DNA of 35,597 nucleotides from a virus. Numbering within the stretch: the first letter of the stretch is position 1; every line of letters begins with the position of its first letter. Made by a program: the position numbers and the translations under genes. Of this stretch, positions 20,736-34,753 are shown piece after piece. The stretch is from positions 1 through 35,597 of IMG/VR virus record IMGVR_UViG_3300011258_001062; one strand, 5' to 3'. The notes under the pieces are model-generated. The model was not told the DNA's origin. It saw only the letters and a list, made by a program, of their open reading frames with translations, and searched no databases.

Positions 20736-20775
20736 AAAAACAGGACAGGCGGCAGAGGCCGAAGCCCCCGCCGCC
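20736..20775 (-). terminator. Strong UUCG-loop terminator after the coat gene
   Basis: On the minus strand a 12-bp stem (GGCGGCGGGGGC with GCCTCTGCCGCC, two G-T pairs) is capped by the stable tetraloop TTCG. Nine bases later comes TTTTT. It lies eight bases after the coat-protein stop. It would protect the abundant coat mRNA and lower read-through into the tail genes. Confidence 0.75.
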
Positions 20776-20783
20776 CTTGCCGG

Positions 20784-27320: not shown

Positions 27321-27615
27321 GTAGCGCTAACCCGTCTACCGCGCCTGTGCGGGCCTTAATCTGCTTTTCTGAATTTATGGATTCCGTAACCTCGGCTTTC
27401 GTCCGCAGCCGTCGGATAACGCCGGTCACGACGCGATTGATTTGCGGGTAGGTCATTTCGAACCGGACGCCCTTGCCGGTGTCGCGGGTTTCGAACGTTC
27501 GTCCGGCGGCGCGGTTTTGAGCGGTGATCGCTGCAACCAGATCATCGAGCGAGCCGTCAACGCCCATCCGCTCCCGAAGGCCGCTGTCGGTTTTGATTTC
27601 GAAAACGCGTGTCAT
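27313..27615 (-). CDS. Hypothetical protein, 100 aa
   Basis: It starts MTRVFEIKTDSGLRERMGVD and ends with a basic helical part (NRVVTGVIRRLRTKAEVTES). The centre has FETRDTGKGVRFEMTYPQIN. No family was recognised. Its ATG overlaps the stop of the DnaA-like gene, so it is probably cotranslated with replication genes. Confidence 0.65.
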   Translation of the reverse strand: MTRVFEIKTDSGLRERMGVDGSLDDLVAAITAQNRAAGRTFETRDTGKGVRFEMTYPQINRVVTGVIRRLRTKAEVTESINSEKQIKARTGAVDGLALHG

Positions 27616-28166
27616 CCTGAAACTCCTACATGCTGGAAAATAGCGCGGCGGGAAGCGACGTAGCGGCCTTCAGGCGTGTCGTGCTCCCAGACCGGGCGCT
27701 TGGACAGTTCGATGGCGCGCAGATTGGCTAGGCGGGCTTCCTCCAGCCTGGATCGTTCGAACGCTGCCGCCCGGCGTTGCGCCTTCATGCGGCGCTTGCG
27801 ATGTCGATTCAGGCGACGGATGTGCGATTGCAGGTCAATCTTGGCGGCTTTGCCTGCGATCTTTTCCTGGGCTCTTGCAAGGATCGCCTCGGCGAGCGCT
27901 ACCTGATCCGGGCAGGCTTTGGCCTTGCGAACGCTGTAAATGGCTGTCGTGTGGTCCTGGAAGCCGACTAGCGCGGCGATGTCGGAGTAGCTGTAGCCTT
28001 CCGGCGCTAGCCGCATGGCGAGGCATAGCGCTTGTCGTGGTCGGGTGATGCTGAAGTTTCTCGAGATGGAGATGATGTCATTCCGCCCGGTCAGCTTTTT
28101 GGCGGCGCGCAGGATCGCTTGCGGCAATGCGGACGCGGCTACGTCGTGGTTTTGCGGTGATGTCAT
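27612..28166 (-). CDS. DnaA domain IV-like DNA-binding protein
   Basis: The 184-residue protein carries at about 38-85 the helix-turn-helix of DnaA domain IV: SITRPRQALCLAMRLAPEGY, then YSYSDIAALVGFQDHTTAIY and SVRKAKA. The DHTT motif contacts the DnaA box in bacterial DnaA. The AAA+ ATPase domain of DnaA is absent. The remainder is a long, very basic helix (SHIRRLNRHRKRRMKAQRRA). It may recognise DnaA-box-like sites in phage or host DNA. ATG 28166 follows GGGAGGGG and overlaps the upstream stop. A second DnaA-domain-IV protein lies at 29714-30094. Confidence 0.8.
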   Translation of the reverse strand: MTSPQNHDVAASALPQAILRAAKKLTGRNDIISISRNFSITRPRQALCLAMRLAPEGYSYSDIAALVGFQDHTTAIYSVRKAKACPDQVALAEAILARAQEKIAGKAAKIDLQSHIRRLNRHRKRRMKAQRRAAAFERSRLEEARLANLRAIELSKRPVWEHDTPEGRYVASRRAIFQHVGVSG

Positions 28167-28357
28167 CAGCCTTGCCCCTCCCGCTGAACGGCGGCGGCGA
28201 TCGCGCCGGATAGCGCTGAATTGATCGCGAGGGCATTGCTCCAGTGGATCTGATGCGTGGCGATGACTATGCCGCCTTCGCGAATGGCGATGGTGACTTC
28301 GCCGGGCTTTTCCGAAAGCGTGACGGCGCAGGTCTTGGCGAGGGGGATGGCGGTCAT
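28166..28357 (-). CDS. Hypothetical protein, 63 aa
   Basis: A small protein starting MTAIPLAKTCAVTLSEKPGE, probably a beta-rich N-terminus with a C-terminal helix (NALAINSALSGAIAAAVQRE). GGAG lies seven to nine bases upstream, and both ends overlap neighbouring genes by ATGA. Function unknown. Confidence 0.6.
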   Translation of the reverse strand: MTAIPLAKTCAVTLSEKPGEVTIAIREGGIVIATHQIHWSNALAINSALSGAIAAAVQREGQG

Positions 28358-28881
28358 GTGGCGGCTCCAAACTTGAGGCGTTTAACGAGGGAGTGCAGGC
28401 GGTTCAGTTGATCCGGCGATACTCGCGGGCCGTCGCCGGGCTGTGGCTGCTGAGCTTTTTCGTAGCGGGCGATCAACGCTTCACCGCGATAGGCCGGGCG
28501 GGTGAATAATTCTGCGTTTTTCTCAGCCAACGCTTCTGCGACTTCTGCGACAGACGGAATCCATTTTGACGAACGGACGAGCGATTTGCAGGCTGCGATG
28601 ATCGTCTCAAGCGGGTATTCCGCCATCACGTCGGCAACCTCAGCGACGTAAAACGTGACGTTGTGATCCGGGGCGCGCTGTGGCCACGATGATAGGAATG
28701 CTTCGGCGCGGCGGCTGACTTCGGCAGGCGAGGCGGGCGGGCGGCTTCGCAGCCAACGGACAGACCCGACAAGAACCGGCATGGTTAGCCGGGATTCATC
28801 GTCGCTATCGCCCCGGCGCAATGCCGCAACGCCTCGTCGCCCTGTTTCGGGTCCGGCTAATTCTGTCAATTCCCGACTCAT
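28354..28881 (-). CDS. Probable replication-associated protein (helicase-loader-like region)
   Basis: The 175-residue protein contains a helical module at about 70-125 (NVTFYVAEVADVMAEYPLET, then ACKSLVRSSKWIPSVAEVAE). This module is common in alphaproteobacterial phage proteins encoded next to replication initiators and recalls helicase-loader/organiser proteins. It has no Walker motif, so it is not a DnaC-type ATPase. The role is inferred mainly from its place immediately downstream of the initiator gene. ATG 28881 overlaps the upstream stop. Confidence 0.55.
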   Translation of the reverse strand: MSRELTELAGPETGRRGVAALRRGDSDDESRLTMPVLVGSVRWLRSRPPASPAEVSRRAEAFLSSWPQRAPDHNVTFYVAEVADVMAEYPLETIIAACKSLVRSSKWIPSVAEVAEALAEKNAELFTRPAYRGEALIARYEKAQQPQPGDGPRVSPDQLNRLHSLVKRLKFGAAT

Positions 28882-29714: not shown

Positions 29715-30094
29715 TACGCAGCCTCCCCATTCCAGACGGGGGTGAGCGACTTGATCGCGCGCTTCGTCTTGCCTTCGTTTACGTATGGCCCATATGCAGC
29801 GGCTCGCATTGCATCTGCGCGCGCCATTGCTTTGTTCAGGATCGAAAGCCCTGCATCCTCAAGATGCAGGTCAAAAAAACGTCGTTGACCGTGGAGGATT
29901 GTCGTATGGCATTTGTCCAGAAGCCGGGCCATTCCTGATGCAGACATGCCAGCGTGCCATCCAGCGCAAATGACTAGATATCGCGCCTTCGTGACTTCGC
30001 GCTTGCGAGATTGGCCGCGCAATATTTCCGCGCTTATACCGGAATCTTTGGCGACCTCACACAGTATGGCATTAGTTAAATAATGGTCGATCAT
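29714..30094 (-). CDS. Second DnaA domain IV-like protein
   Basis: The 126-residue protein contains a domain IV-type pattern at about 15-75: AKDSGISAEILRGQSRKREV, ARYLVICAGWHAGMSASGMA and LLDKCHTTILHGQRRFF, where CHTT replaces the DHTT of DnaA. The order (helix, RGxSRKREV, RYL helix, HTH) closely follows the DnaA C-terminal domain. There is no ATPase domain. It overlaps the GapR gene start-to-stop (ATGA) and lies just upstream of the initiator. Confidence 0.8.
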   Translation of the reverse strand: MIDHYLTNAILCEVAKDSGISAEILRGQSRKREVTKARYLVICAGWHAGMSASGMARLLDKCHTTILHGQRRFFDLHLEDAGLSILNKAMARADAMRAAAYGPYVNEGKTKRAIKSLTPVWNGEAA

Positions 30095-30363
30095 GCCCCG
30101 CCTCCCGGAATAGCGGCCCGGCCAAGGGGCGTATCGGCAAGCATCCCAACTGCGGCTTTATAGGAATCAACCAGCGCCTCATATTCTGCCCGGTCGCTGG
30201 CCTCCATCTTCCGCAACTTCAAAACTTCGCGCATGATCTTTGTGTCGAATCCGTTGGCCTTGGCTTCGGCAAACACTTCTTTGATGTCGCCAGCTATCCC
30301 GGCCTTTTCTTCGTTCAGGCGTTCGATGCGTTCGAAATAGGCTGTGAGTTGTCCGTTGGTCAT
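30091..30363 (-). CDS. GapR family DNA-binding protein (DUF2312)
   Basis: The 90-residue protein has the GapR/DUF2312 signatures: QLTAYFERIERLNEEKAGIA, GDIKEVFAEAKANGFDTKIM and REVLKLRKMEASDRAEYEAL. In Caulobacter GapR binds overtwisted AT-rich DNA ahead of replication forks and supports replication. Homologues are widespread in alphaproteobacteria and their phages. The ATG at 30363 with GAGGGG nine bases upstream is preferred over an upstream TTG that overlaps the ssb stop. Confidence 0.92.
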   Translation of the reverse strand: MTNGQLTAYFERIERLNEEKAGIAGDIKEVFAEAKANGFDTKIMREVLKLRKMEASDRAEYEALVDSYKAAVGMLADTPLGRAAIPGGGA

Positions 30364-30374
30364 TGGCCTGCCCC

Positions 30375-30845
30375 TCAAAATGGAATGTCGTCGTCGAGCG
30401 GCATTGGCGCGGCGCGGCCTGCCGTCCCGTCCTTCGCTCGTCGGTAATCGTCGGAACTACCGCCGCCTGAGCGCTGCGATTGCTCGCCATCGGGCTTGCC
30501 GTCCAGCATCGTCAATTCGCCCCGGAAACGGGCTAGAACGATCTCAGTGGAGTAACGGTCGTTGCCGGATTGATCCTGCCACTTGCGCGTCTGGATTTGG
30601 CCTTCGAGATAGACCTTAGAACCCTTGCGCAAGAACCGCTCGGCGATATCGACAAGATGCTCGTTGAAAATTGCGACGCGATGCCATTCCGTGCGCTCCT
30701 GCTTTTCTCCCGAACCTTTGTTCGTCCATCGTTCGGATGTGGCGACGGACAAGCGCCCAAAGCGCCGCCCGTCTTGCGTTTGTGTGAACTCAGGGTCTTG
30801 GCCCAAGTTACCCACTATGATTGCCTTGTTGACTGATCCGCTCAT
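30375..30845 (-). CDS. ssb: Single-stranded DNA-binding protein
   Basis: The 156-residue protein has an OB-fold at 1-110 (VNKAIIVGNLGQDPEFTQTQ, RFGRLSVATSERWTNK, EWHRVAIFNEHLVDIAERFL, GSKVYLEGQIQTRKWQDQ), a flexible Gly/Ser/Arg linker and the acidic tip DDDIPF that recruits partner proteins. It lies between the Sak4-like ATPase and GapR genes, overlapping the former, and probably works with that recombinase and in replication. Confidence 0.95.
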   Translation of the reverse strand: MSGSVNKAIIVGNLGQDPEFTQTQDGRRFGRLSVATSERWTNKGSGEKQERTEWHRVAIFNEHLVDIAERFLRKGSKVYLEGQIQTRKWQDQSGNDRYSTEIVLARFRGELTMLDGKPDGEQSQRSGGGSSDDYRRAKDGTAGRAAPMPLDDDIPF

Positions 30846-33409: not shown

Positions 33410-33751
33410 TCACTCGCTGCGGCCTTGGGCTTTGCGTAAGGCTTCGATGCTCTCTTGAAGTTCTTGCATCTGCGTATCCAATCGAGCGCGGGCCGCTTCC
33501 TCGTCGCCGCCAAGCAGCACGAAGGCGATCCAATTGGGACCGAACACCTTCCCACACTCGGCAATCGTCTCAGATGTTGGAACGCGCGGGTTTGACCAAC
33601 TCAGCAAGTCCTCGCAGCGGCGAATGCTTAAGCCGGTAATTCTGGCAAGCTGCTTGACGGCATGGCCTTTGAAACGTTGCCGGATTGTGTGTTGGAACCG
33701 TTCCGCTATCGCCACGCTCATAGTGTGGTTCTTCCACGCTGATTTTCGCAT
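33410..33751 (-). CDS. HTH-containing small protein, possible early regulator
   Basis: The 113-residue protein has a predicted helix-turn-helix at about 26-50 (KGHAVKQLARITGLSIRRCE, then DLLSWSNPRVPTSETIAEC), a hydrophobic middle (NWIAFVLLGGDEEAARARLD) and a terminal coiled coil (MQELQESIEALRKAQ). Such proteins open the early operon of several alphaproteobacterial phages, with unproven regulatory roles. ATG 33751 with GGAG seven bases upstream is chosen; ATG 33721 is an alternative. It lies downstream of the long leader with a terminator. Confidence 0.65.
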   Translation of the reverse strand: MRKSAWKNHTMSVAIAERFQHTIRQRFKGHAVKQLARITGLSIRRCEDLLSWSNPRVPTSETIAECGKVFGPNWIAFVLLGGDEEAARARLDTQMQELQESIEALRKAQGRSE

Positions 33752-34086
33752 CCATGTTCTCCAAATTCAGGGACATGGATGGAAACGGACACGAAAGGAC
33801 GGGACGTTGTGAGCGCATTGGCGATATTGTCAGCCGCCTTGTCGCTCAGATTGAGGTCAGAGAACGTGACGGCGCGGGGAGTGCAATCCCTGGCGCTGTC
33901 GAGTGTGAGAAATGCGGGGGCGGCGTGGCTGCAACCACGGTATCCGCCCCCTACAGCGCTACTACCGGGGAAAGGAGCAAACCCAGGAGCGCCGATGGTG
34001 TTAGCGTTGCCCGAAAAAGCCGCTCCAGCCGGTGACGGATCGCCGACTGGAGCGCAGTTCAGGGAGAGACTTGTGCGGGCGGTCAT
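33718..34086 (-). other. Open leader region between cro and the HTH gene (structured RNA or doubtful 122-aa ORF)
   Basis: A frame starting at ATG 34086, five bases after the cro stop, stays open into the HTH gene (MTARTSLSLNCAPVGDPSPA at its start, AADNIANALTTSRPFVSVS near its end). Its first third translates a strong terminator hairpin, and composition is Ala/Ser/Pro-rich, unlike neighbours. It resembles the Ash-type ORFs annotated over structured RNA in other prophages. I favour an untranslated regulatory leader, but a protein is not excluded. The opposite strand has an equally long unconvincing frame. Confidence 0.35.
34014..34054 (-). terminator. Strong terminator directly after the Cro-like gene
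   Basis: On the minus strand CGCTCCAG pairs perfectly with CTGGAGCG, extended inward by a partial CGG/CCG pairing around an ATCCGTCA loop, and is followed by GCTTTTTC. It lies about 250 bases after the leftward promoter and ahead of all replication genes, so expression of the operon must pass it. Confidence 0.75.
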
Positions 34087-34090
34087 TGGG

Positions 34091-34300
34091 CTATGCCGCC
34101 CCTTTTGCTTCGGCGGGCTCAAACCAATCGCTCGGCTTAACTTTGCCCTTCGTTGCCTTCTCAATAGCCAGAGCCGTTCCCAAAGACGGAGTGCGCTCGC
34201 CATTTACCCAACGGGATACAGAGGCATGTGAAACGCCTACGCGCGCGCCGAACTCGGCAAGCGTTAGGTCATGTTGTGAGATGTATGTTTTCAAGTTCAT
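34091..34300 (-). CDS. Cro-like HTH regulator
   Basis: The 69-residue protein has an HTH at about 11-32 (LTLAEFGARVGVSHASVSRW) followed by VNGERTPSLGTALAIEKATK and a closing VKPSDWF, a pattern of Cro/YdaS-type repressors. ATG 34300 coincides with the transcription start predicted from the -10 at 34312-34307, so the mRNA may be leaderless. It is the first gene of the leftward operon and is divergent from the CI-like gene. Confidence 0.85.
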   Translation of the reverse strand: MNLKTYISQHDLTLAEFGARVGVSHASVSRWVNGERTPSLGTALAIEKATKGKVKPSDWFEPAEAKGAA

Positions 34301-34306
34301 GGCTGA

Positions 34307-34335
34307 AATGTAACCTAACGGTACATTCATTGCAA
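34307..34335 (-). promoter_or_regulatory. Leftward early promoter with operator O1
   Basis: On the minus strand TTGCAA (34335-34330), a 17-base spacer and TACATT (34312-34307) form a good sigma-70 promoter. The 21-base dyad AATGTA-N9-TACATT (34307-34327) overlaps the spacer and -10, so a bound repressor would block RNA polymerase. Predicted start is at or next to the cro ATG. TTGCAA is self-complementary and could also serve as the -35 for the opposite, CI-like direction. Confidence 0.75.
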
Positions 34336-34393: not shown

Positions 34394-34684
34394 ATGAAAC
34401 TAAGGCTGAAATATTGGCGGAAAGCCCGCAACATGACGTTGGAGCAGGTCGCTGACGGCTTGAATGTCTCGCACGTGGCGGTATCTCGATGGGAGACCGG
34501 CAGTAGAGCCCCCACCGTAGAAAACCTCGCAAAGCTAGCAAAGCTGTACCGTGTGCCGCCTGGACTCCTATTTGAAGACCCGTCAGGGACACCGATTCAT
34601 GAAGCCGCCGATATCGTCGCGAGCCTATCGGCGGATAAGGCGGCGGCGTGGTTGGCGATGGGGCGCGCGCTAACGTCAAAATAG
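34394..34684 (+). CDS. CI-like XRE-family repressor lacking a peptidase domain
   Basis: The 96-residue protein has an XRE HTH at about 12-45 (MTLEQVADGLNVSHVAVSRW, ETGSRAPTVENLAKLAKLYR) and a short helical tail (EAADIVASLSADKAAAWLAM). There is no LexA/S24 domain with a Ser-Lys pair, so RecA-stimulated self-cleavage is unlikely. It lies between two copies of the same operator and is the best candidate for the immunity repressor. ATG 34394 is preferred; an upstream TTG at 34352 would add 14 residues but has no ribosome-binding site. Confidence 0.82.
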   Translation: MKLRLKYWRKARNMTLEQVADGLNVSHVAVSRWETGSRAPTVENLAKLAKLYRVPPGLLFEDPSGTPIHEAADIVASLSADKAAAWLAMGRALTSK

Positions 34685-34724: not shown

Positions 34725-34753
34725 TTGCATGTGATGTAACCTATTGGTACATT
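34725..34753 (+). promoter_or_regulatory. Rightward early promoter with operator O2
   Basis: TTGCAT (34725-34730), a 17-base spacer and TACATT (34748-34753) repeat the design of the leftward promoter. The dyad ATGTA-N9-TACAT (34734-34752) sits in the same place relative to the -10, and 14 of its inner bases resemble O1 (TGTAACCTA, then GGTACATT). Predicted start is near 34760, ahead of the gene at 34784. Confidence 0.78.

Follow-up and report, generated by a model that had tools for sequence, protein, structure and literature searches.

The terminator tR1 of phage lambda stands right after cro, behind a repressor-controlled early promoter and ahead of cII and the replication genes, and the site described here occupies the same position. 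Termination at lambda tR1 depends on Rho, and nutR overlaps it (PMC3526286), whereas our site is of the intrinsic type, is spanned by an open reading frame and has no recognised nut site or N protein. A second likeness is found in the pyrBI operon of E. coli, where, according to a passage in PMC4824070 that cites Roland 1988, a terminator lies inside the leader-peptide gene. Both cases combine an intrinsic terminator with a short leader ORF upstream of regulated genes; the leader is translated in pyrBI and may be translated in the phage. However, the pyrBI leader opens its transcript and senses UTP via U-rich pause sites, while the phage leader ORF comes only after a complete gene, cro, and revealed neither a sensor nor a pause site. 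The C4 RNA of P1 and P7, with which the locus had been compared in the first-pass annotation, does not code for protein and belongs to a phage immunity operon, but the leader analyzed here has neither an Rfam match nor an antisense target. The put RNA of HK022 would account for read-through independent of N. Such an RNA must be transcribed ahead of its terminator, whereas here almost only cro precedes the terminator and the leader is mostly downstream. For temperate phages other than the lambdoid coliphages, little is known of how a terminator separating cro from the replication genes is passed or exploited.

The window, that is the whole stretch of DNA analyzed, comes from a virus and its record comprises 35,597 bases. 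Judged by its portal, coat, terminase and integrase genes, the phage is a temperate P22-like podovirus. Its immunity region is shared only with a near-identical metagenome contig (L002), in which the leader is identical throughout; otherwise the leader ORF has no close relatives among viral contigs, genomes, phages and plasmids. The same contig extends beyond the right end of the window (35597) into sequence resembling its left start, within a gene carrying GP(N/D)AKIG repeats, and the window record therefore looks circularly permuted. Further along the genome, a GapR-like DNA-binding protein is encoded at 30097-30378 (PF10073, E 1e-30), with 415 relatives in viral contigs, and is common in related phages. 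The replication initiator gene is flanked by two genes for proteins with a DnaA C-terminal domain (29717-30094 and 27615-28370).

The control region and the probable terminator after cro

The elements of the control region are the following:

34394 to 34684, plus strand: CI-like repressor, divergent from cro
34725 to 34753, plus strand: second repressor-controlled promoter (pL-like), TTGCAT-17-TACATT, containing the operator at 34734-34752
34307 to 34335, minus strand: early promoter pR, TTGCAA-17-TACATT
34308 to 34326: operator ATGTAACCTAACGGTACAT, inside pR
34091 to 34300, minus strand: cro, 69 aa, HTH_3
34019 to 34055, minus strand: predicted intrinsic terminator hairpin, arms 34054-34043 and 34032-34021, with a 12-bp stem including one G-U
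34018 to 34014, minus strand: T5 tract of the terminator, with GC between the stem and T5

The 19-bp operator ATGTAACCTANNGGTACAT is present in exactly two copies (34308-34326 and 34734-34752), with 0 expected and none in shuffles. Likewise, the window has just two matches to the pattern TTGCAW-N17-TACATT, and its shuffles have none. Each operator copy lies inside one of these promoters, one of which reads cro and the other the early operon of the plus strand. The -10 element of pR ends 6 nt ahead of the cro ATG, and with a start site placed from this promoter the cro mRNA is therefore predicted to be leaderless.

The hairpin lies between the repressor-controlled pR and the CII-like gene together with all replication genes, its stem beginning 36 nt after the cro stop. 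It is GC-rich, has a dG of -26.2 kcal/mol (z -5.06) and is followed by a T-tract, as in an intrinsic terminator. Only 0.03% of dinucleotide shuffles of 33752-34090 contain a terminator with dG of -25 or below and a T-tract, and the whole minus strand of the window has one other candidate at or below -25, at 20782-20741, after the major capsid gene, where a terminator is expected. The post-cro site had been missed by a consensus terminator scan because of its loop limit of 8 nt. These properties make the hairpin a likely functional terminator, at which transcripts would end in vivo near 34014. The first-pass annotation had placed here a perfect 8-bp stem with a T run, standing between the promoter and every replication gene and gating the replication operon. 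The position, the T run and the gating role agree with our analysis, but the stem has 12 bp with one G-U, and in lambda it corresponds to tR1, which lies between cro and cII, rather than to the tL1 that had been named.

The strong candidate terminator at 20741-20782 is directly 3' of the P22-type coat gene, yet further late genes of the same orientation follow it.

The post-cro terminator may do no more than let a fixed part of the transcripts pass. If it is simply an intrinsic terminator of partial efficiency in the place of tR1, it would set a constant ratio of cro to cII and replication transcripts, any ORF across it being translated only against Rho or left untranslated. A strong hairpin followed by a short T5 is consistent with this reading, which we regard as possible but doubtful, since the spanning ORF described below is coupled at both ends beyond chance and the arrangement is recurrent.

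The leader reading frame and its coupling to neighbours

Two features follow the cro gene on the same strand:

33718 to 34086, minus strand: leader ORF, 122 aa, rich in Ala/Ser/Pro/Gly, spanning the terminator
33410 to 33751, minus strand: CII-like HTH protein, with an alternative start at 33721

The leader ORF begins with an ATG (34086) located 4 nt past the cro stop, about 31 nt ahead of the stem, and ends with a TGA that overlaps the ATG at 33721 of the CII-like gene. The terminator falls within its first ~70 nt, inside an ORF and ahead of the regulated genes, as in pyrBI. Coupling at both ends was found in only 0.3-0.6% of shuffles (P 0.003-0.006). One ambiguity counts against it: the CII-like gene has two candidate starts, and the ATG at 33751, which has the better Shine-Dalgarno sequence (GGAG), would remove the exact ATGA overlap given by the ATG at 33721.

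Other properties of the ORF are those of a non-coding stretch. Its codon score (-0.06) is below the minimum of the accepted genes (+0.027), a deficit that also favors a fixed terminator, and above most wrong frames (mean -0.20). GC at its codon positions is flat, and frames of its length appear, in some frame, in 32% of shuffles. There is no good Shine-Dalgarno sequence for the ATG at 34086, no family was matched in PHROG or Pfam, and structure prediction from the single sequence gave an unfolded peptide (pLDDT 31). By the tests of codon usage, family and fold the ORF thus looks non-coding. The plus-strand ORF at 33779-34231, which has a score of -0.147 and no family, was dismissed as a shadow frame. 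Nevertheless, coupling of both ends beyond chance argues that the leader ORF, low as its codon score is, is probably not an artefact of annotation, and its translation appears to be linked to that of the flanking genes. The earlier description of this region as lacking a convincing gene is therefore not confirmed, and the suggestion that the doubtful ORF may have arisen from annotation is probably wrong, the more so as the arrangement recurs in other leader types.

If the frame is translated, its product could be a functional small protein, with the hairpin as a by-product of GC-rich coding sequence. Both coupled ends are compatible with this, but we consider it very unlikely given the poor codon score, the missing family and predicted fold (for the single sequence) and a hairpin strength and T5 above chance.

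Antitermination by RNA or by protein

The region downstream of the terminator contains one further structured element:

33916 to 33951, minus strand: second strong hairpin, 8+6 bp with a 4-nt bulge, dG -27.2, without a T-run

The leader as a whole folds better than its shuffles (z -3.17), an excess that comes largely from the terminator and the 33951-33916 hairpin. This fold and the second hairpin would suit a C4-type antisense RNA, a put-like RNA or another new structured regulatory RNA in 33752-34090. However, Rfam gave no match for the leader at the gathering threshold or even at E 5, the C4 covariance model was not matched, and the longest antisense pairing of the leader (13 nt) is at the chance level (shuffle mean 12.2). 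Moreover, the transcript from pR contains upstream of the stem only the cro frame and 36 nt, while 33752-34014 is transcribed after the terminator and for this reason is unsupported as a cis antitermination element. A put-type element would be a structured RNA made ahead of its terminator, whereas the structured stretch found here lies downstream. The leaderless cro mRNA and a leader mostly downstream of the terminator leave little room for a nut, put or riboswitch-like antiterminator. We therefore regard a regulatory RNA as extremely improbable. A new antiterminator RNA is unsupported, and the roles proposed in the first-pass annotation for the leader, as an antitermination element or as a small regulatory RNA of the C4 type, do not agree with these data.

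An antitermination protein of the N or Q kind, unrecognised by sequence, could instead act on polymerase within cro or the following 36 nt, modifying it so that it passes the terminator. N-type proteins are small and diverge fast, many early ORFs of the plus strand have no family, and the early and late genes form one long unit on the minus strand in which the capsid gene, too, is followed by a strong terminator, all of which would suit such a protein. Nevertheless, no antitermination family or PHROG was detected among 20 early plus-strand ORFs or the cro-side genes, in agreement with the earlier remark that no N-like protein is recognised. Inspection by eye between cro and the stem revealed no boxA-like or boxB sequence, and the predicted leaderless cro mRNA offers little space for a nut site. 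This alternative therefore seems unlikely.

Recurrence in other phages and a possible control by ribosomes

About 200 phage loci were gathered with TerL, GapR-like and cro queries, and strong post-cro terminators are present in a minority of them. A doubly coupled ORF spanning the terminator was found in 6 of 8 loci (the window, L183, L212, L073, L216 and L227), while the ORF of L185 is coupled only at its 5' end, without the 3' overlap, and that of L215 ends two codons early. Apart from the window, three leader types share this layout (L183/L212, L073/L216 and L227). The combined nominal P for double coupling is 7e-8 over this set, which was put together after the pattern had been seen, and is estimated at ~1e-5 for about four independent lineages. 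On the other hand, L145 and L081 have post-cro terminators without a coupled ORF, which speaks for a fixed terminator. The terminator is absent in many phages with related cro, and a strong coupled one was not found in ten loci of published phages with related cro. A search with the CII-like protein in ~780 alphaproteobacterial genomes gave two weak matches (L210 and L213); L210 encodes a distant CII relative in the same operon position and order, but without such a leader. The genomes searched yielded no further relative of the L183 leader, the L073 leader or the L073 CII.

The loci also indicate with which genes the leader travels. L183 (5053-5500) and L212 (1903-2952) have unrelated cI and cro but are nearly identical from just past cro, with the terminator unchanged, and hence the leader travels with the downstream operon. 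The exchange point lies right after cro, ahead of the terminator, and each locus brings its own in-frame ATG. In L073, L215 and L216 the front half of the leader is kept under three different upstream genes, and the downstream gene of L216 is clearly different. From these comparisons, the terminator is part of the downstream operon, and shifts of the junction have left the frame intact. Between L183 and L212 we counted 5 non-synonymous and 2 synonymous changes in the leader, which argues against a functional small protein, while 11 of the 20-21 changes separating the L073/L215 leaders from that of L216 fall in third codon positions, which favors one. Selection on the leader peptide would accordingly be weak to moderate, as far as such small numbers indicate.

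The hairpin, T-tract, promoter, operators, ORF overlaps and recurrence can be read directly from the sequences, and from them we infer termination in vivo, translation of the leader ORF and a ribosome control of read-through. In such a control, polymerase starting from pR would by default yield a short cro mRNA ending near 34014, and a ribosome stopping at cro would leave the terminator active. A ribosome that finishes cro could re-initiate at the ATG 34086 and follow the polymerase closely, covering the hairpin, and transcription would continue into cII and the replication genes. The act of translating the leader would matter, and the sequence of the peptide would matter little. The lambda terminator tR2, placed in E. 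coli at a distance of over about 27-30 nt from a preceding stop codon, is almost fully active; within a few nt of the stop it hardly acts, and inside the first 100 bp of a coding region it is efficient unless the ribosome is coupled to the polymerase (PMC4824070). In our phage the corresponding distances to the stem are 36 nt from the cro stop and about 31 nt from the leader ATG.

Counting against ribosome control are the leader codon usage, lower than in every accepted gene, the ambiguous CII start and the lack of a good Shine-Dalgarno sequence at 34086. A further objection is that a terminator near the start of an ORF is often out of reach of the ribosomes. Overall, the reading that we prefer, though at even odds, is that the tR1 position holds an intrinsic terminator within a leader ORF whose translation is coupled to that of its neighbours, and that ribosomes set the read-through as in pyrBI attenuation. 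Only tentatively do we extend it to several temperate phage lineages, in which a ribosome-controlled attenuator at the tR1 position, made up of an intrinsic terminator within a content-poor ORF with coupling to cro as well as cII, would replace an N-type protein and translation linked to cro would decide transcription of CII and the replication genes.

The new element is the recurrent embedding of the post-cro terminator in a coupled ORF; a literature search of incomplete coverage found no description for phages of a terminator embedded in such an ORF. If leader translation is the switch, the choice between lysis and lysogeny would be a direct readout of the translational state of the cell that needs no antitermination protein, and a regulatory role would fall to the gaps or doubtful ORFs that many annotations show after cro.

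Two of the gathered loci have further features. L227 is the Cylindrospermopsis phage Cr-LKS3, whose gap of ~127 nt from cro to the next gene is unannotated; a strong terminator (dG about -36), also unannotated, lies there in a coupled post-cro ORF (L227 1045-1180). In L112 (6120-6960), a post-cro gene adjoining the GapR-like gene encodes degenerate decapeptide repeats (..HTQNASSG..) in a long array.
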